From the NCBI RefSeq assembly GCF_002095395.1, contig NZ_MJEI01000107.1:186001-250000 (forward strand): a stretch of DNA of 64,000 bases. The letters run 5' to 3'. This DNA is from Williamsia sp. 1135 (lineage in GTDB: Bacteria > Actinomycetota > Actinomycetes > Mycobacteriales > Mycobacteriaceae). The position numbers and the translations under genes were made by a program. A model generated the notes under the pieces. It was given only the letters and a program-made list of their open reading frames with translations. It was not told the DNA's origin and ran no database searches. Positions within the stretch are counted from its first letter, which is position 1. Every line of letters starts with the position of its first letter. Below, in pieces: positions 4,056-49,284 of this stretch.

Positions 4056-4105
4056 TGGGAGACGCAGGGTTGATGGGAAGTGCTGGATTGATGGAGAGCA
4101 TGCTG
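4052..4105 (+). repeat. 18-bp tandem repeat (3 units) at the HIT-pgsA junction
   Basis: Units start at 4052, 4070 and 4088. Each opens with TTGATGG and continues with a purine-rich stretch containing GCTGG or a variant. The first unit contains the HIT stop codon. An 18-bp period keeps the mini-ORF in frame. This looks like slippage duplication of a stop/start junction. Confidence 0.6.
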
Positions 4106-4117
4106 GATCAATGTTGA
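4055..4117 (+). CDS. Bridging mini-ORF (20 codons) between the HIT gene and pgsA
   Basis: ATG 4055 shares its A with the HIT stop (TGATG). The frame runs 20 codons to TGA 4115-4117, overlapping the pgsA ATG at 4111 in a different frame. The peptide would be [20 protein letters not shown]. It is made of three 18-bp units beginning TTGATGG at 4052, 4070 and 4088. No function for the peptide is suggested by its sequence. The arrangement would let ribosomes finishing the HIT gene re-initiate and then be handed to pgsA. Whether it is translated is unknown. Confidence 0.35.
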   Translation: MGDAGLMGSAGLMESMLDQC

Positions 4118-7494: not shown

Positions 7495-8421
7495 GTGAGC
7501 AGTGCCCCAGACCTTGGTTCATCGGTGAAGCCGGAGACGTCCGGCACCGGAACCGCGCGTGTCAAGCGTGGGATGGCCGAGATGCTCAAGGGTGGCGTGA
7601 TCATGGACGTCGTCACCGCGGAGCAGGCGAAGATCGCCGAGGATGCGGGTGCTGTCGCTGTCATGGCTCTCGAGCGTGTTCCGGCCGATATTCGTGCCCA
7701 GGGCGGGGTGTCGCGGATGAGTGATCCGGACATGATCGATTCCATCATCTCCGCGGTGTCGATTCCGGTGATGGCCAAGGCGAGGATCGGGCATTTCGTC
7801 GAGGCGCAGATCCTGCAGAGTCTGGGCGTGGACTACATCGACGAGTCCGAGGTCTTGACCCCGGCCGACTATGCCAATCACATCGACAAGTGGCAGTTCA
7901 CCGTTCCTTTTGTGTGTGGTGCGACCAATCTCGGTGAGGCTCTGCGTCGCCTGACCGAGGGTGCGGGCATGATTCGCTCGAAGGGCGAGGCCGGTACCGG
8001 TGACGTGTCGAACGCCACGACCCATATGCGCAAGATCCGCGACGAGATCCGTCGGTTGACGTCGTTGCCGAAGGACGAGCTGTTCGTGGCCGCGAAGGAA
8101 TTGCAGGCGCCGTATGAGCTGGTGGTCGAGGTTGCCGAAAGCGGCAAGCTGCCGGTGACGTTGTTCACTGCGGGCGGTATCGCGACCCCGGCGGACGCGG
8201 CGATGATGATGCAGCTCGGCGCCGAGGGTGTGTTTGTCGGATCGGGGATCTTCAAGTCCGGCAATCCTGCCGAACGGGCGGTTGCGATCGTGCAGGCGAC
8301 CACGTTCTACGACGACCCCGACGTGCTGGCCAAGGTCTCACGTGGGCTGGGCGAGGCCATGGTCGGAATCAATGTCGACGACATCCCACAACCGCACCGG
8401 CTCGCCGAACGCGGCTGGTGA
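7495..8421 (+). CDS. pdxS: Pyridoxal 5'-phosphate synthase, synthase subunit
   Basis: A 308-residue TIM-barrel enzyme that makes PLP from ribose 5-phosphate, glyceraldehyde 3-phosphate and ammonia delivered by PdxT. Visible signatures include GGVIMDVV (catalytic Asp), [30 protein letters not shown] (catalytic Lys region) and a C-terminal [20 protein letters not shown] phosphate-binding loop. The start is GTG 7495 with AGGAG about 9 bases upstream. Codon use looks plainer (more T-ending codons) than in its neighbours, as often seen for strongly expressed genes. Its partner pdxT is at 12823, separated by the signalling block and tesB. Confidence 0.97.
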
Positions 8422-8453
8422 TCTGACACGGATGCGGGGGTCCGAAGAATTCG

Positions 8454-9467
8454 ATGACGAGCGCGTCCGCTGATTTCGAGGCGATCCCACTCGGCTGCGG
8501 CCGCTGTGGGACGCAAATCCCGTCCGCGCTGGCGCGGTGCCCCGAATGCGGGCAGCAGATGTTCGTCAGCCCCGGCGCAGGAGTGCCGGAGTCTCCGCGA
8601 GAGTTTCTAGGGGCCAACCGGATCCCGGCGTCGATGGGAGCCCGGACGACGGCTTACCTGATCGATACCGCGCTGGTGATCGGCTCTCTGGCCGCCCTGC
8701 TGTGGGCCGAGCTGGCCCTCGGGCTCGGTCTGGCGGTCGTGTTCGCCGTCGGCGTGCCGCTGCTCGCCTTGACGGCGAGCGCGTTGCTTCGCGCCGCCGG
8801 CCGGCGGACTCCCGGTCAGGTACTGAGCAGGACAACCGTCAGGCGCCGGGTCTCCGGTCACCCCGGCGGATTCTGGCGGCAGCTGTTGCGCACCACCGCA
8901 CTGCATGTGAGCAATGTGCTGCTCTTCGCGGGTGCGTGGTCTGTCCTCGCCGACCGTGGTCGCCCACGGCGCGGCTGGCACGAAAAGATCTCCGGCACGA
9001 CGACGACAGGCAGTCTCGGTACTGCGGGTTACGAGGTCGTTCCCGTGCCTCCGCGTTTCGCGGGTGGCGGCGACTCCGCTGACCTCCCGACAGATCTCAT
9101 CGATCCCCGGCAGTCCGCACGGACGTTGCCCTTGCACTCCGGCCACCGCCCGCTCCGGTTGCGGATGGATGACGGCAGTTTCACCGATCTGTCAGGGTCC
9201 GGGTTTCTCGGCGTACCGGCGGTCGCGTGGTCTGGGGGACGTGCCGAGATGGTCGTGGTGTCGGCAGAATCTGCGCTCGAAGGCGACACGCATCTCCAAT
9301 TCAGTGTCTCGGGCGGCAGATTGTGGATGATCAGTACGGGTCCAGCGGTCGGATCCGTCCTCGACAACGGCGAATCGGTCACCACGATGCGTCCCGGACA
9401 TCCCTACGAGGTGGGTCCGGGCACGGTGGTGCATCTCGGTCCGCGCAGTTTCGAGGTCGCCGGATGA
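8454..9467 (+). CDS. Zinc-ribbon / RDD membrane / FHA-like protein
   Basis: 337 residues. The N-terminus has a zinc ribbon (Cys 15, 18, 29, 32: CGRCG and CPECG). Residues about 58-185 form an RDD-type membrane region: RTTAYLIDTALVIGSLAALL, then a second span, then the basic TPGQ-containing segment and a third span. The last ~115 residues look like a degenerate FHA fold (DTHLQFSVSGG, then LDNGESV, then GPGTVVHLGPRSFEV). FHA domains bind phosphothreonine; the usual Ser-Arg-x-x-His is not intact here, so binding is uncertain. It is followed, through two mini-ORFs, by a PP2C gene. It probably senses or anchors a phosphorylation signal at the membrane. The cargo of the RDD part is unknown. Confidence 0.7.
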   Translation: MTSASADFEAIPLGCGRCGTQIPSALARCPECGQQMFVSPGAGVPESPREFLGANRIPASMGARTTAYLIDTALVIGSLAALLWAELALGLGLAVVFAVGVPLLALTASALLRAAGRRTPGQVLSRTTVRRRVSGHPGGFWRQLLRTTALHVSNVLLFAGAWSVLADRGRPRRGWHEKISGTTTTGSLGTAGYEVVPVPPRFAGGGDSADLPTDLIDPRQSARTLPLHSGHRPLRLRMDDGSFTDLSGSGFLGVPAVAWSGGRAEMVVVSAESALEGDTHLQFSVSGGRLWMISTGPAVGSVLDNGESVTTMRPGHPYEVGPGTVVHLGPRSFEVAG

Positions 9468-9505
9468 CTATCAGACGCGGAGCCGGAGGCGGAGCTCGAC
9501 CATGA
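9464..9505 (+). CDS. Bridging mini-ORF 1 (13 codons) after the RDD/FHA gene
   Basis: ATG 9464 overlaps the stop of the upstream gene (ATGA) and the frame ends at TGA 9503-9505, overlapping ATG 9502 of the next mini-ORF (ATGA). The peptide would be MTIRRGAGGGARP. It is one unit of the tandem array 9464-9617. It is likely to matter as a coupling relay rather than as a peptide; translation is not shown. Confidence 0.35.
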   Translation: MTIRRGAGGGARP

Positions 9506-9617
9506 CGACTGGAGACGAAGCCGCAGACACGGCTCGGGCCATGACGACTGGAGACGAAGCCGCAGACACGGCTCGGGCCATGACGACTGGAGACGAAGCC
9601 GGAGGCGGAGCTCGACC
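9464..9617 (+). repeat. 38/39-bp tandem repeat (4 units), each beginning ATGA
   Basis: Units start at 9464, 9502, 9541 and 9580, with lengths 38, 39, 39 and 38; a fifth ATGA at 9618 is the PP2C start. Units two and three are identical. Units one and four share the ending GCCGGAGGCGGAGCTCGACC. There are no spacers, so this is not a CRISPR. The array fills exactly the gap between two genes. Confidence 0.9.
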
Positions 9618-9621
9618 ATGA
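9502..9621 (+). CDS. Bridging mini-ORF 2 (39 codons) leading into the PP2C gene
   Basis: ATG 9502 overlaps the stop of mini-ORF 1, and TGA 9619-9621 overlaps the PP2C ATG at 9618. The peptide is three 13-residue units: MTTGDEAADTARA twice, then MTTGDEAGGGARP. Units two and three begin with ATGs at 9541 and 9580, so initiation at any of the three would end at the same coupled stop. The acidic repeat peptide has no recognisable function. Confidence 0.35.
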   Translation: MTTGDEAADTARAMTTGDEAADTARAMTTGDEAGGGARP

Positions 9622-10433
9622 CAATGGAGACGACTGGGACAGTCCGTGATGAGATGCGCAGTGGGACAGGCGAGTTCGGTCAGGTCGAGATAAGTTGGGC
9701 AGTGGTCAGTGATGTCGGTCTGCTTCGGGAGACCAACGAAGACGCGGCACTGGTGGGGCCTGGCATGCTCCTCGTCGCGGACGGTATGGGTGGCCACGAT
9801 TGCGGCGAACTAGCCAGCGAGGCGGCGCTGTCGGCGTTGTCGGACACCGCGATCACGGGGATCAACCGCACTCGGGACTCGGTGATGGACCTGCTGAGCG
9901 AGGCGCAACGTCAGATCGAGGACATCGACACCGCAGACTCGGGTCGGCGAGCGGGTACGACGATCACCGGGGCGATGTTGGTCGACAATGACGGCGTCCC
10001 GCACTGGCTTGTACTCAACATCGGGGATTCTCGGACATACCGGATGTCTCACGGCCGTCTGGAGCAAGTGACGGTCGATCATTCGCAAGTACAAGAACTC
10101 GTGGACGCGGGTTTCTTGACCGCGGCACAGGCCCGGGTCGACCCGCGACGAAACGTGATCACCAGAGCCCTTGGCGCGGGTATGGAGCAGGAAGCCGACT
10201 TCTTCACGTTCCCGGTGGAGGTGGGGGACCGGATCATGGTGTGTTCCGACGGGCTGACCGGTGAGCTGACAGACGATTCGATCGCGACGATCCTCGCCGA
10301 CCTCACAGACCCTGCCCAGGCCGCACAGGCTCTGGTGGCGGCGGCGTTGGAAGCGGGCGGACGGGACAACATCACGGTGGCGATTGCCGACGCGACAGCT
10401 GTTCCGAAGATCGTGGAGTCCACTGACCGGTGA
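9618..10433 (+). CDS. PP2C-family Ser/Thr protein phosphatase
   Basis: A 271-residue metal-dependent phosphatase. The PP2C motifs appear in order: RETNEDAAL (about residue 38), VADGMGGH (about 54-61, two metal-binding Asp/Gly positions), AGTTITGAML, LNIGDSRTYR, NVITRALGA, VCSDGLTGELTD and GGRDNITVAI. It therefore has the full set of metal-ligand aspartates and should be active on phosphoserine/threonine. There is no transmembrane span, so it is cytoplasmic, unlike membrane-bound PstP. It is coupled to the upstream RDD/FHA gene through the mini-ORF array and is one base from the FHA gene downstream. No Ser/Thr kinase gene is in the block. Confidence 0.93.
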   Translation: MTMETTGTVRDEMRSGTGEFGQVEISWAVVSDVGLLRETNEDAALVGPGMLLVADGMGGHDCGELASEAALSALSDTAITGINRTRDSVMDLLSEAQRQIEDIDTADSGRRAGTTITGAMLVDNDGVPHWLVLNIGDSRTYRMSHGRLEQVTVDHSQVQELVDAGFLTAAQARVDPRRNVITRALGAGMEQEADFFTFPVEVGDRIMVCSDGLTGELTDDSIATILADLTDPAQAAQALVAAALEAGGRDNITVAIADATAVPKIVESTDR

Positions 10434-10440
10434 GATGCCC

Positions 10441-11211
10441 ATGACCGCAGCGGATTCGCCGGATGAGTCGCCGATCGTCGCGCAACAGGTAGATCGAGCG
10501 ATCCCCGAGACTTTTGTCGACTACTGCGGCGAGAGGTTCACGGTCAGCCCTGACGAGCCATTCCACATCGGGCGTGAGGCCGATCTCGACGTCGACGACA
10601 ATCCGTACCTGCATCGTAAGTTCCTGATGCTCCACTACGAGGACGGGTTGTGGTGGTTGTCGAATGTCGGTTCGCACCTGTCGGCCGGCGTGGTTGCCGG
10701 AGACGCCGGATTTCAGGCGACTCTCGCGCCGGGCGCCCGGGTGCCGCTGGTTTCCGGCGTGAGCGCCGTGGTCTTTTCCGCTGGTCCGACGACCTATGAG
10801 CTCGATATTCACTCCGGCGCAACACCTTTGGTCACCATTGAGCCGCCCGTCGAGCCGACGCAGAGTGGGGAGACCACGATCGGTGTGGTCTCGCTGACCG
10901 AGAGCCAAAAGCTGCTCATCGTGGTGTTGGCCGAGGAAGTGCTGCGTCGCAACGGCACGGGCGCGAGCTCGATCCCGTCGTCGGCGCAAGCCGCCAGGCG
11001 CCTGGGATGGTCCATCACGAAGTTCAATCGAAAGCTCGACAACGTCTGCGACAAGTTCGATCAGATAGGCGTCTCCGGGATGCGCGGTGGCTCGGGCCGG
11101 TTGGCGAGCAATCGACGGGTCAAGCTCGTCGAGTATGCGGTCGCGGCGCGGCTGGTGACACGCTCAGACCTCCCTCTGATCGACGCCGAGGCGAAGGTCA
11201 ACGGCGTCTGA
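10441..11211 (+). CDS. FHA-like domain protein with C-terminal winged-helix region
   Basis: 256 residues from ATG 10441; the in-frame ATG at 10435 is an alternative. Residues about 28-120 look like an FHA fold: FHIGREADLDVDD (the GR is conserved), then NPYLHRKFLMLHY in place of the usual Ser-Arg-x-x-His, then WLSNVGS (the Asn is kept). The C-terminal ~100 residues (LTESQKLLIVVLAEEVLRRN, SAQAARRLGWSITKFNRKLDN) look like a winged helix-turn-helix. It may be a phosphopeptide-responsive DNA-binding protein, the likely output partner of the PP2C gene upstream. The DNA-binding role is inferred from the helix pattern only. A terminator hairpin overlaps its stop. Confidence 0.65.
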   Translation: MTAADSPDESPIVAQQVDRAIPETFVDYCGERFTVSPDEPFHIGREADLDVDDNPYLHRKFLMLHYEDGLWWLSNVGSHLSAGVVAGDAGFQATLAPGARVPLVSGVSAVVFSAGPTTYELDIHSGATPLVTIEPPVEPTQSGETTIGVVSLTESQKLLIVVLAEEVLRRNGTGASSIPSSAQAARRLGWSITKFNRKLDNVCDKFDQIGVSGMRGGSGRLASNRRVKLVEYAVAARLVTRSDLPLIDAEAKVNGV

Positions 11212-11222
11212 GACGCCTCTTT
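11203..11222 (+). terminator. Intrinsic terminator after the FHA/winged-helix gene
   Basis: GGCGTCT at 11203-11209 and AGACGCC at 11211-11217 form a compact stem over the stop codon, followed by TCTTT. The stem is short but well placed, and the next gene has a 200-bp leader of its own. Confidence 0.5.
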
Positions 11223-11304
11223 GTGCCCTGCTGCGCCCCAATGTCTGCACCATCGGGCAGCTGGATGGGTTCTTCTTGAGCAAAATGCGCTCTAACCTGC
11301 GGAT

Positions 11305-11327
11305 ATGGGGTGGGTAGTTCTCCCCAT
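11305..11327. promoter_or_regulatory. Inverted repeat in the 11212-11416 gap, possible operator
   Basis: ATGGGG at 11305-11310 and CCCCAT at 11322-11327 are perfect inverted 6-mers 11 bases apart, 90 bases before the LuxR-type gene. TTGAGC at 11276 and GGATAT at 11301 could be weak promoter elements (19-base spacing). The rest of this 205-bp gap shows nothing that I recognise. Confidence 0.3.
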
Positions 11328-11416
11328 CGACACAGCTGGGAGGTCGTCTTAGTGTTTGTGTCACGTCCAGAACAGCGCGGCGGAGCTAGCCGGCCAACAC
11401 CTACAGGAGAACTTCG

Positions 11417-11896
11417 ATGACCGTATTGCACAACACCTTTGGCGCGCCGGCTCGCACTCGGGTCGGATATCGGCCGGCGACCCCGGCCAGGATGACGCGA
11501 GAAGAGGCTCTCGCCCGGCTGGCCCAGCGCACGATGCCACTGCCTGGCCGACCGGGACACGCCGCAGCAGGCGCCACCTGCACCACTCCGGGCGCCCCCA
11601 CCTCGAACGGTCAGCAGTCGCGGTCGATGCACGCCCCGATGGCCTCCGAGCCGGCGCCGGTGGCGTATCCGAAACCGAAATTGTCGCAGCGGGAGATCGA
11701 GGTGCTACGCGCGTGGCTGAACCTGGATTCGAAGTCCGCGGTGGCCGAGTCCCTGTTCATCTCGCTGGGGACCGTGAACACGCACCTCGCCCGAATCCGG
11801 GTGAAGTACAACGAGGTCGGTCGCGGCGCTCCCACCAAGGCCGCGCTGGTCGCGCGCGCCATCCAGGACGGGATCGTGCATATCGACGACCTGTGA
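11417..11896 (+). CDS. LuxR-type helix-turn-helix regulator
   Basis: A 159-residue protein starting at ATG 11417, with AGGAG 9 bases upstream. Residues about 88-155 are a LuxR/GerE-type DNA-binding domain: LSQREIEVLRAWLNLDSKSA, then SLFISLGTVNTHLARIRVKY, with the recognition helix at GTVNTHLARIR. The first 87 residues are rich in Pro, Ala, Arg and Thr and look disordered; there is no receiver or ligand domain, so it is not a classical response regulator. It stands alone between the PP2C/FHA genes and tesB and has its own upstream region. Its targets are unknown; it could act with the neighbouring signalling genes. Confidence 0.85.
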   Translation: MTVLHNTFGAPARTRVGYRPATPARMTREEALARLAQRTMPLPGRPGHAAAGATCTTPGAPTSNGQQSRSMHAPMASEPAPVAYPKPKLSQREIEVLRAWLNLDSKSAVAESLFISLGTVNTHLARIRVKYNEVGRGAPTKAALVARAIQDGIVHIDDL

Positions 11897-28551: not shown

Positions 28552-28708
28552 CGCCGAGCGTGCCGTAAATGTCGCCGAGCGTGCCGCTACACGCGGTGAT
28601 CGGGTCGCTGGGTGTCGTCGGAATGACGAAACGGCCCGATCATCTGGAACAACGGCCCGGTCAGCGGTTTCAAGGGCACGGTCGGCGGTGGTTTAGGCAC
28701 GGTCGGCG
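28552..28708. repeat. 21-bp periodic direct and inverted repeats between convergent genes
   Basis: CGCCGAGCGTGCC occurs at 28552 and 28573; ACGGCCCG occurs at 28631 and 28652; GGCACGGTCGGCG occurs at 28675 and 28696. Each pair is 21 bp apart. The outer pairs are inverse complements of each other with one mismatch, so the element can fold in two registers. It fills the gap between the tiny lipoprotein gene and the convergent DUF885 gene and may act as a two-way terminator. Confidence 0.75.
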
Positions 28709-28713
28709 GTGGG

Positions 28714-30348
28714 TCAGCCGAGCTCGGCTTTCAGGACATCGAGGCTGACGCCGCCCAGTGCGAGCGCTTTGCTGTGGAAGTCCTTGAGCGAGTGTGTCGG
28801 ATTGGTCCGGGCGTACGAGTCGCGGGCCTGCTGCCACACCCGTTGGCCGAGCGCGTAGGACGGCGCCTGTCCGGGCCAGCCGAGATAGCGGTTGAGTTCG
28901 AACCTGAGCACGGTGCGGTCCATCGCGACCGCGGCGGTGAGGAAGGCCCAGGCTTTCTCGGCGTCCCAGATGCCGCCGCCCACCGATTCCGGAGCCCGTA
29001 GACCACAGTGCACTCCGATGTCGACCACGACTCGTGCGGCCCGAAGTCGTTGAGAATCAAGCATTCCCATGCGGTCGCCGGGATCATCGAGCCAGCCGAG
29101 CTCGCCCATGAGCCGCTCGGCGTACAGCGCCCAGCCCTCCCCATGGCCGGAGGTGAACGAGGCGAGCTTGCGCCATCGGTTCAATTCGGGACTGACCATC
29201 GCGGACCCGAGTTGCAGGTGATGGCCGGGGACGCCCTCGTGGAAGACGGTGGTCGTCTCCTGCCACGTGTGGAAGACGTTCTGCTGCGGAGGAACCGACC
29301 ACCACATCCGCCCTGGCCGAGACAGGTTCTCGCTGGGCATCGTGTAGTAGATGATCCCCGTCGCAGACGGCGCGAGCCGGCACTCGAGCGCGGTCAGTTC
29401 CGTCGGGATGTCGAAGTGCACCTTCCCGACTTCGGCGGTCGCGCGGTCGGAGAGGTCCTGCATCCAGGCGACGAAGGCGTCGCGATCGGTCATCTGGTAG
29501 CGCGGATCGGCATTCAGTGTCGCGAGTGCGCCGGAAACCCCTTCCCCGGGAGCGATCTGCTCGGCAAGCATCTCCTGCTCTGCCACTATCGAGTCGAGAA
29601 GATCCAGCCCCCATGCGTACGAATCGTCGACGTCGATATCGGTTCCGACGAACTCGGCCGAATGCAGCTGATAGCGATCTCGGCCGACGGCGTCGGCGTC
29701 CGTGGCGCGGGGGAGCACCTCGTCACGTAACACCGCTGCGAGTGTTGTCATCGCGGCGCCCACCCGGCCGCGCAGGTCGTCGAGGAGTTCGACCTGATCG
29801 GTGGCCTCGATAGCGGTCGCATTGCTGAAGATCGACGCGGTCGCAGTATCGGCCTGCTCGGCGACGAGGCCGACCTGGCGGCCGGCGAGTGGCGGACCGG
29901 ATTCGAGGCGGTGACGCAGGCCCTCGATGATCGATTCGACGCTGCGCGGGATTTGGGTGAGCCTGGCGAGGAAGACGTCCTGCTCGGCGGCGGTGCCGGT
30001 CGGCATCAGATCGAACACGTCCCGGACCGACTGCAGCGGCGATTCGATGACGTTGACCTCACCGATACGCAGACCCGCGTCGTCGATGGCGAGCGATCGG
30101 CGGAGCTGATCAGTCATGGTGGCCACGGTCACGCGATCGACGTCGTCTGCTGCCGGCTCACCTGCCAACGCTGCGAGGGCATCACCTCGAGCGGTGGCCC
30201 GATCGGCCTCACCCAGAGGGGAGAAGTCGGTCAGCAGATGATCGTGGCCGGTCACCCCGAGGTGCGTGGCCTCGATGGGGTTCAGGGCGCAGGAACGTTC
30301 GAGGTATCCGTCGGCGATGCGATCGACCCCGCCGGCCGCGCGCGTCAC
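28714..30348 (-). CDS. DUF885-family putative metallopeptidase
   Basis: A 544-residue DUF885 protein. The metal-binding core is FHEGVPGHHLQL (an HEGVPGHH pattern like a variant HExxH) with a downstream GHGEGWALYAE providing the likely third ligand Glu. Such proteins are distant gluzincin peptidases, often cytoplasmic; the substrate is unknown. It starts at GTG (complement of 30346-30348), overlapping the stop of the preceding zinc-peptidase gene, so the two form one operon on the minus strand. No signal peptide is seen. Confidence 0.85.
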   Translation of the reverse strand: MTRAAGGVDRIADGYLERSCALNPIEATHLGVTGHDHLLTDFSPLGEADRATARGDALAALAGEPAADDVDRVTVATMTDQLRRSLAIDDAGLRIGEVNVIESPLQSVRDVFDLMPTGTAAEQDVFLARLTQIPRSVESIIEGLRHRLESGPPLAGRQVGLVAEQADTATASIFSNATAIEATDQVELLDDLRGRVGAAMTTLAAVLRDEVLPRATDADAVGRDRYQLHSAEFVGTDIDVDDSYAWGLDLLDSIVAEQEMLAEQIAPGEGVSGALATLNADPRYQMTDRDAFVAWMQDLSDRATAEVGKVHFDIPTELTALECRLAPSATGIIYYTMPSENLSRPGRMWWSVPPQQNVFHTWQETTTVFHEGVPGHHLQLGSAMVSPELNRWRKLASFTSGHGEGWALYAERLMGELGWLDDPGDRMGMLDSQRLRAARVVVDIGVHCGLRAPESVGGGIWDAEKAWAFLTAAVAMDRTVLRFELNRYLGWPGQAPSYALGQRVWQQARDSYARTNPTHSLKDFHSKALALGGVSLDVLKAELG

Positions 30349-40691: not shown

Positions 40692-41629
40692 ACTCCCAGC
40701 AGGGTCGATCCCAGAACGGTCAATCCCAGAACGGTCAGTCGCAGCAGCCCGCAGCCCGTCGCTACCGGGTCACCCACCGCACGCGGTACGACTACGACAA
40801 CGTGGTGTCGAGTTCGTACGGCCGCGCGTACCTGCAGCCCCGTGATCTGCCGGGGCAGCGGGTGCTGACCAGTGAGGTAGAGGTCGACCCCGAACCGTCC
40901 GACCGCTCGACCGGAGTGGACATCTACGGCAACTCCGACAGCTATTTCCACGTCCGCACACCTCACCGCCGACTCGAGGTCACCGGCACGTCGACGGTCG
41001 AGGTGGATCCGATCGATCATGGCCTGCTCGACTCGCCGGCGGCACGGGGGTCGTGGGAAGACGCCCGGCCGCTCGGTCCGGCATCCGCACGGGCGGTCGA
41101 GTTCCGGCTGGACCTGTTCCCGCCTGAGATCAGCCCTGCCGTGCGGGACTACGCCGCGACGATCTTCACCCCAGGCGCGCCTTTGATCGATGTGGTGGTC
41201 GAGCTGACCCGGCGGATCTTCCGTGACTTCACCTACCGATCGGGCTCGACCCAGATCAGCACGCGGGTCGATACCGTCCTGGACCGCCGCGAAGGGGTCT
41301 GCCAGGATTTCGCCCGCGTCGCGATCGCTTGTCTGCGTTCGCAGGGACTCGCCGCTCGTTACGTGTCCGGATACCTCGCCACCGACCCACCACCGGGCAA
41401 GGAACGGATCTTCGGTGCGGATGCGTCCCATGCCTGGGCCGCGGTGTGGCTGCCGGGGGACCGGTGGATCGCATTCGACCCGACCAACGACACCCTGGTG
41501 GGCGAACGGCACGTCACCGTCGCGTGGGGACGCGACTACGAGGATGTACCGCCGCTGCGAGGAGTCATCTATACCGAATCCCGCAAGAGCAAAATCGATG
41601 TCTCGGTGGATGTCTCCCCAGTTCCCTGA
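40688..41629 (+). CDS. Transglutaminase-like protein (Rv2569c-like)
   Basis: 313 residues from GTG 40688, which overlaps the upstream stop. The N-terminal beta domain (RYRVTHRTRYDYDNVVSSSY) is the bacterial transglutaminase-like N-terminal region. The catalytic triad is Cys in GVCQDFARVAIACLRS (about residue 205), His in ASHAWAAVWLPGDRW and Asp in AFDPTND. The first 20 residues contain a Gln/Asn/Ser repeat (RSQNGQSQNGQSQQ) made by a 15-bp tandem repeat. It is the third gene of a coupled trio with the ATP-grasp/alpha-E protein; a peptidase or amide-transfer role is inferred. Confidence 0.9.
   Translation: MNSQQGRSQNGQSQNGQSQQPAARRYRVTHRTRYDYDNVVSSSYGRAYLQPRDLPGQRVLTSEVEVDPEPSDRSTGVDIYGNSDSYFHVRTPHRRLEVTGTSTVEVDPIDHGLLDSPAARGSWEDARPLGPASARAVEFRLDLFPPEISPAVRDYAATIFTPGAPLIDVVVELTRRIFRDFTYRSGSTQISTRVDTVLDRREGVCQDFARVAIACLRSQGLAARYVSGYLATDPPPGKERIFGADASHAWAAVWLPGDRWIAFDPTNDTLVGERHVTVAWGRDYEDVPPLRGVIYTESRKSKIDVSVDVSPVP
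40703..40747 (+). repeat. 15-bp tandem repeat at the 5' end of the transglutaminase gene
   Basis: Three 15-bp units start at 40703, 40718 and 40733 (GGTCGATCCCAGAAC, GGTCAATCCCAGAAC, and a diverged third). They encode five-residue repeats of the form GQSQN and start 13 bases after the GTG. Confidence 0.85.
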
Positions 41630-49242: not shown

Positions 49243-49284
49243 GTGACATTCGGGATGAGTGGTGTCGAGGATGAGTGACACGGG
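49237..49284 (+). repeat. 16-bp tandem repeat (3 units) at the mltG-aroE junction
   Basis: GGATGAGTG occurs at 49237, 49253 and 49269, exactly 16 bp apart. Each unit holds an ATG (49239, 49255, 49271), and because 16 is not a multiple of three each lies in a different frame. The first overlaps the mltG stop; the third is the aroE start. Confidence 0.85.
49239..49274 (+). CDS. Bridging mini-ORF (11 codons) between mltG and aroE
   Basis: ATG 49239 overlaps the mltG stop (ATGA), and TGA 49272-49274 overlaps the aroE ATG at 49271 (ATGA). The peptide would be [11 protein letters not shown], whose first three residues equal those of AroE. A second tiny frame from ATG 49255 (MSGVEDE) ends at TGA 49276-49278. 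A coupling relay is the likely role. Confidence 0.35.
   Translation: MSDIRDEWCRG

Follow-up and report, generated by a model that had tools for sequence, protein, structure and literature searches.

The genus Williamsia is host to a family of short interspersed repeats with a core of 27-29 bp, and a member of this family lies in the tandem array found between an RDD/FHA gene and a PP2C-type phosphatase gene of Williamsia sp. 1135. It is probable that a member of the family inserted at an ancestral ATGA overlap between these two genes and was then amplified, the array being a tolerated insertion that translation can cross, in the manner of the MIRUs of mycobacteria, rather than an evolved control device.

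The array between the RDD/FHA and PP2C genes

Within the window, the whole stretch of 64,000 nucleotides that was analysed, the array and both genes that flank it are read on the forward strand. The upstream gene (8454-9467) encodes an RDD domain (Pfam E 3.1e-8) and an FHA-like C-terminus, with the FHA part missed at E 0.001 in the window gene and passing the Pfam cut-off in a Tsukamurella orthologue; 8454 is used here as the start, the codon-usage caller preferring 8559. The downstream gene (9618-10433) encodes a PP2C-type phosphatase (Pfam PP2C_2, E 1.4e-8). It had been claimed that the gap between them is filled exactly by four units of 38 or 39 bp that each begin with ATGA, and the sequence and TRF bear this out. 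The units occupy 9464-9617, these being unit 1 (9464-9501, 38 bp, read from the sequence), unit 2 (9502-9540, 39 bp, its core diverged from the family consensus), unit 3 (9541-9579, 39 bp, identical to unit 2) and unit 4 (9580-9617, 38 bp), the last three being recognised by TRF also. The TRF entry covers 9500-9633 with a period of 39, 3.5 copies, 90% matches and a score of 205, which is the highest in the window, the next of the 45 rows scoring 67.

The two small ORFs that had been proposed to chain the genes together are returned by a mechanical path search that allows overlaps of -4 or -1. The TGA stop of the RDD/FHA gene (9465-9467) overlaps the first ATGA, mini-ORF 1 (9464-9505, 13 codons) ends in the ATGA at 9502 and mini-ORF 2 (9502-9621, 39 codons) ends in the ATGA at 9618, at the PP2C start, so that the three stop/start overlaps are the ATGAs at 9464, 9502 and 9618. 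The remaining two ATGAs, at 9541 and 9580, belong to the reading frame of mini-ORF 2 and do not serve for restarting. Each of the two restart points in the array has a strong Shine-Dalgarno-like sequence, the anti-SD duplex being -10.3 kcal/mol at 9502 and 9618 and -7.1 at 9464. For comparison, the median is -7.0 over 97 called gene starts and -4.8 over 400 random ATGs, and both in-frame ATGs that come after the diverged units have -3.4. No signal of RNA structure was found over 9440-9660 (z -0.09), and a search of Rfam over 8000-11500 gave only three matches, with E values of at least 0.34 and all far below their gathering scores.

A repeat family dispersed through the genus

The core that is common to the array unit and the dispersed copies is GGAGACGNAGC-(3 to 5 nt)-GCGGAGCTCGACC, 27-29 bp long. 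Unit 4 holds a 29-bp copy (9589-9617, forward strand) that a pattern search identifies as an exact member of the family, GGAGACGNAGCN(3-5)GCGGAGCTCGACC, and that ends in GGAG and 7 nt ahead of the PP2C ATG. When the array is used as a query against its own genome (5,980,688 bases, 107 contigs) 58 matches result, a good number of which cover nothing of the array but the 3' part of unit 4, and the exact core pattern is found 42 times, the pattern reversed not once. The core is present in 9/9 genomes of the genus with 18-48 exact copies each, and elsewhere in the family Mycobacteriaceae in 3/392 other genomes with one copy each; a looser search (E 1e-4) of 61 relatives up to order level found it in nine, all of the genus and the same nine genomes. 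Searches of plasmid and phage collections with blastn at E 1e-3 gave no match to the repeat, and no published description of such a repeat in Williamsia or Gordonia was recognised among the titles and abstract openings of the open-access literature. The idea that the unit is merely a slipped stop/start junction thus does not hold, as the unit contains a dispersed, genus-wide repeat.

Tandem copies are mostly spaced at 33-39 bp. The core is open in all six frames and 128/155 copies have all three sense frames open, yet 63% of shuffled cores are likewise open in six frames, and open frames were rejected as a special property of the core.

The placement of the copies was determined with a simple codon-usage gene caller written for this analysis. 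The 40 clusters of Williamsia sp. 1135 are divided between co-directional gaps (14 sense, 3 against), divergent gaps (6), convergent gaps (2) and the inside of genes (13 sense, 2 antisense), with a bias towards the direction of the neighbouring genes (27 vs 5, p 1.1e-4). Over nine genomes, where part of the copies of the eight relatives is covered and an orthologous site can enter the count several times, there are 104 clusters, with 26 sense and 9 against in co-directional gaps, 15 in divergent and 7 in convergent gaps, 41 sense and 5 antisense inside genes and 1 undetermined. The share inside called genes is therefore 15/40 in the one genome and 46/104 in the nine. An ATG or GTG follows within 3 nt after 31/104 clusters.

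Copies that lie in sense inside genes are nearly always spaced so as to keep the reading frame. Across the nine genomes 38/39 of their tandem spacings are multiples of three, such that 22/23 arrays consist of multiples of three throughout, compared with 27/46 spacings and 11/24 arrays for those that are outside genes and uncoupled (Fisher p 2.6e-4 for the arrays); within Williamsia sp. 1135 alone the difference, 4/5 vs 3/7 arrays, is not significant (p 0.29). Five in-frame 12-aa copies are found inside a 602-aa protein that has an LFTSGTTG motif (G000:C26:117451-117621, L185) and is presumably an AMP-binding enzyme, the orthologue in W. soli having one 12-aa copy and those in seven other genomes none. 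A single copy (G000:C55:148719, L173) is carried by a gene with a GPTE motif, which we take to be NRPS-like and the site to be its adenylation region. This gene was matched in 8/9 genomes; that of W. limnetica carries several copies, that of W. soli a remnant and those of the four muralis-type genomes none.

Coupled junctions and how they may have arisen

In all 11 Tsukamurella-type loci where an FHA gene adjoins PP2C (L053, L055-L059, L062, L063, L067, L068 and L072) the genes meet in a bare ATGA overlap, as they do also in an Arthrobacter locus (L070), and in the Gordonia loci the place directly upstream of PP2C is taken by a pdxS-like gene. Two of the records appear to be mislabelled or misbinned, as L037, named Kitasatospora arboriphila, is a Williamsia muralis-type locus and L068, named Acidobacteriaceae, is a Tsukamurella-type locus. 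No empty site was found at this junction within Williamsia, and W. faeni is without the RDD/FHA gene there. Given the bare overlap of the Tsukamurella-type loci, it is most likely that the repeat entered a junction that was already coupled and was amplified there.

Among the relatives the array has taken several forms. In W. limnetica there are 35-bp units with mini-ORFs of 9, 12, 12 and 12 codons, and in W. soli there is a single ORF of 61 codons. Four muralis-type genomes (G008 included) have 36-bp units that contain no stop, hence the ATG that overlaps the RDD/FHA stop opens a frame straight into PP2C and the array becomes an in-frame extension of that protein. Williamsia sp. 1138 has 38-bp units with 39 Ns inside the array, and its path is for this reason only conditional. 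When unit number is compared, as the sequence-only reading had proposed for strains, between species (one genome per species), copy number is found to vary, along with unit length and the partition into four mini-ORFs, two, one or a PP2C extension, and an uninterrupted translation path is kept in 7/7 Williamsia genomes with a fully sequenced array, over four different unit lengths. Of the suggestion that slippage expanded the junction whilst keeping termination and reinitiation intact, two elements stand, namely that tandem copies built up on the spot and that relatives retain the path; what was expanded is a unit that carries a dispersed repeat.

A second coupled junction is G000:C48:192180, where the repeat lies behind one gene and ahead of another that, from their protein ends, are taken to be rubredoxin-like and TetR-like respectively. 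Williamsia sp. 1135 has one copy here, W. soli two and Williamsia sp. 1138 three, and the alignment gives bridging ORFs of 12, 24 and 36 codons each of which opens in the overlap with the upstream stop and closes in a GTGA where the downstream gene begins. Of these the path search returned the ones of 12 and 36 codons, taking another path in W. soli where the rubredoxin-like gene was uncalled. The single copy of Williamsia sp. 1135 sits between two GTGACC, and W. limnetica, with zero copies, has a 5-codon mini-ORF instead.

The favoured route to such junctions can be set out for the RDD/FHA-PP2C pair. A short interspersed repeat (core 27-29 bp) would have inserted at the ancestral ATGA overlap, some junction bases (ATGAC and a few more) would have joined the repeat so that a complete unit ends in GGAG, 7 nt and ATGA, and tandem amplification of this unit would have followed. 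With a length of 2 mod 3 each unit would add one more stop/start overlap, a length of 0 mod 3 would give read-through with the frames fused, and an insert of 1 mod 3 that carried the junction along would break the path. In either of the first two cases ribosomes leaving the RDD/FHA gene could reach PP2C with no untranslated stretch to cross. We infer that the mini-ORFs are translated with reinitiation, that PP2C is still coupled and that the number of units is of little importance, and what is said here of how the repeat spreads is of the same standing. The spacings in coupled arrays are 0 mod 3 in 8/11 and 2 mod 3 in 3/11, and as the path-breaking 1 mod 3 class is rare in uncoupled arrays too (4/46), survival of the path neither proves nor needs special selection; selection through avoidance of 1 mod 3 lengths was rejected on the same grounds. 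Of the 14 copies or arrays that lie in sense in co-directional gaps of Williamsia sp. 1135, 3 have an uninterrupted path, as do 9/26 over nine genomes with orthologues recounted, and since it is found at so few sites of the one genome coupling is no rule for the family but depends on the landing site.

It had also been supposed that bridging mini-ORFs are a general feature of the lineage. They are found in 38/444 co-directional gaps of 15-300 nt (1.45 Mb, many of the stretches having been chosen because they hold the repeat) against 34.7 +/- 4.0 in gap shuffles, 52/200 of which reach 38, and against 31.2 +/- 4.2 (maximum 40) when the upstream ends are re-paired too. Any uninterrupted path is found in 60/444 gaps against 62.8 +/- 5.0. 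Split by gap length the bridges number 19 vs 14.7, 10 vs 10.7 and 9 vs 9.2, with gaps of 15-59 nt, the shortest class, exceeding their own shuffles by about 2 sd, and a stricter count over 864 kb gives 14/266 vs 10.0 +/- 2.15 (maximum 16), a mild excess at most. A lineage-wide excess was accordingly rejected. Similar bridges, claimed without a list for four other junctions of the window, do exist there, at two by strict and seven by relaxed rules that admit alternative downstream starts, although genome-wide the relaxed number equals that of the shuffles.

Junctions with tandem repeats do not have coupled paths significantly more often than others (6/25 vs 54/419, p 0.13). In the sample, which was partly chosen for the repeat, tandem repeats cover 3.09% of the bases in co-directional gaps, 2.54% in convergent gaps, 0.76% in divergent gaps and 0.35% in coding sequence. 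Two junctions of the window have small tandem units with sequences unrelated to the dispersed repeat. At 49243-49270 there are units of about 16 bp, each with GGATGA, at a stop/start junction with an 11-codon bridge, these numbering three in Williamsia sp. 1135 and W. soli, four in Williamsia sp. 1138 and none in the muralis group. At 4056-4110 there are 18-bp units, each with TTGATG, at a gene junction, with fewer in Williamsia sp. 1138 and W. limnetica than in Williamsia sp. 1135 and W. soli. As unit number differs among the nearest relatives, junction slippage fits these two. Further tandem repeats lie outside called genes at 28654-28728 (21 bp) and 40694-40737 (15 bp) of the window, and at G000:C55:166824-166934 there are 22-bp units with GTGA repeated behind a gene stop, the co-directional junction there retaining its uninterrupted path.

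The bridge counts at chance level, and the many settings in which the family occurs, could also be taken to mean that the array is a neutral intergenic tandem repeat in which the ORF chain is coincidental and without consequence. This is unlikely, as the path is kept in 7/7 fully sequenced arrays and at a second locus when any path at all is found in only 60/444 junctions, even if common descent and the usual unit lengths account for part of that retention. A portable ribosome-binding site is also conceivable, in which case the GGAG of unit 4 would let PP2C start on its own at 9618 and the mini-ORFs would be idle, and the duplex of -10.3 kcal/mol at 9618 and the start codons that follow 31/104 clusters are what such a site would lead one to expect; it becomes quite unlikely when 41/104 clusters lie in sense inside genes, where no start is needed, and the muralis-type arrays are joined in frame to PP2C.

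The proposal that slippage expanded a stop/start junction and that PP2C output can be adjusted through the number of units is very doubtful. Unit number and ORF partition do differ between species, two other junctions of the window vary in small tandem units and, as reported in PMC2734929, longer repeat arrays upstream of fpg1 in M. tuberculosis went with higher mRNA. Against these points the unit belongs to a dispersed family, bridges are not enriched and the muralis-type genomes do without any restart, having an in-frame extension only. That the repeat encodes peptides with a function of their own is hardly credible, for whilst every array examined is open in the frame used, the frame in use changes from GDEAGGGARP in the window and MTGDAAEGGARP in W. 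limnetica to ETKPKAELDRE in the muralis group, and the peptides vary in length and number as well.

Relation to known repeats and meaning for Williamsia

The preferred reading, a family member inserted at a coupled junction and tolerated there, can be compared with several known systems. In Rickettsia, palindromic repeat elements (RPEs) have entered protein genes without loss of frame, and the in-gene copies of Williamsia resemble them in being short repeats in frame inside such genes; RPEs are however longer than the Williamsia repeat, and palindromic. MIRUs are mainly intergenic and their direction follows that of the neighbouring genes. A 2025 review (PMC12548453), which cites Supply et al. 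1997, portrays MIRUs as short and apparently mobile repeats whose sites of insertion are start codons, with the ORF of the repeat coupled at -4 nt and an effect on the gene that is probably minimal. The sequence-only reading knew of no named description of the principle, and in this it has been overtaken, as MIRUs are already described (PMC12548453).

The Williamsia family is like the MIRUs in that it consists of dispersed short repeats with many copies (42 exact matches here) and a tandem number that varies, here between species, and in that the copies are mostly oriented with neighbouring genes (27 vs 5). At two junctions copies lie at stop/start overlaps with an ORF that would be coupled to the next gene at -4 nt, set against an uninterrupted path of any kind at 3/14 sense sites in co-directional gaps of Williamsia sp. 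1135. The family differs in its unit of 33-39 bp and core of 27-29 bp, compared with the 40-100 bp given for MIRUs in PMC2734929, in not being mainly intergenic with many copies in genes, in the uncoupled state of most intergenic copies, and in its host, which is Williamsia and not Mycobacterium. As unit length and placement are outside the description of MIRUs the family is not filed as one, and is set apart by description whilst being MIRU-like in its action at two junctions.

The tandem repeats between rnc and fpg1 of M. tuberculosis, as the available text of PMC2734929 presents them, are similar in forming an array between two close genes of the same direction, which in relatives all but touch. 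The sequence is a different one, a correlation with mRNA is reported for rnc-fpg1 whereas the Williamsia array is known from sequence alone, and coupled mini-ORFs are not part of the description in that text (PMC2734929).

As a comparable arrangement is already known from mycobacteria, the Williamsia case is a relative in style and introduces no new principle. It shows that dispersed repeats in coupled junctions are not confined to Mycobacterium, and it offers a bare overlap in the outgroup together with varied copy numbers and frame solutions in relatives, such that natural alleles could be used to test whether these repeats control the gene that follows or are simply tolerated. Enzymes, too, have gained in-frame repeats from this family. 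There is a small chance that the repeat is an undescribed element that is nearly transparent to translation, mostly in sense, keeping the frame, carrying its own Shine-Dalgarno-like motif and rebuilding the overlap, with copy number affecting enzymes and the level of PP2C. If this is true, copy number would supply a ready source of length variation in proteins and in coupled junctions.
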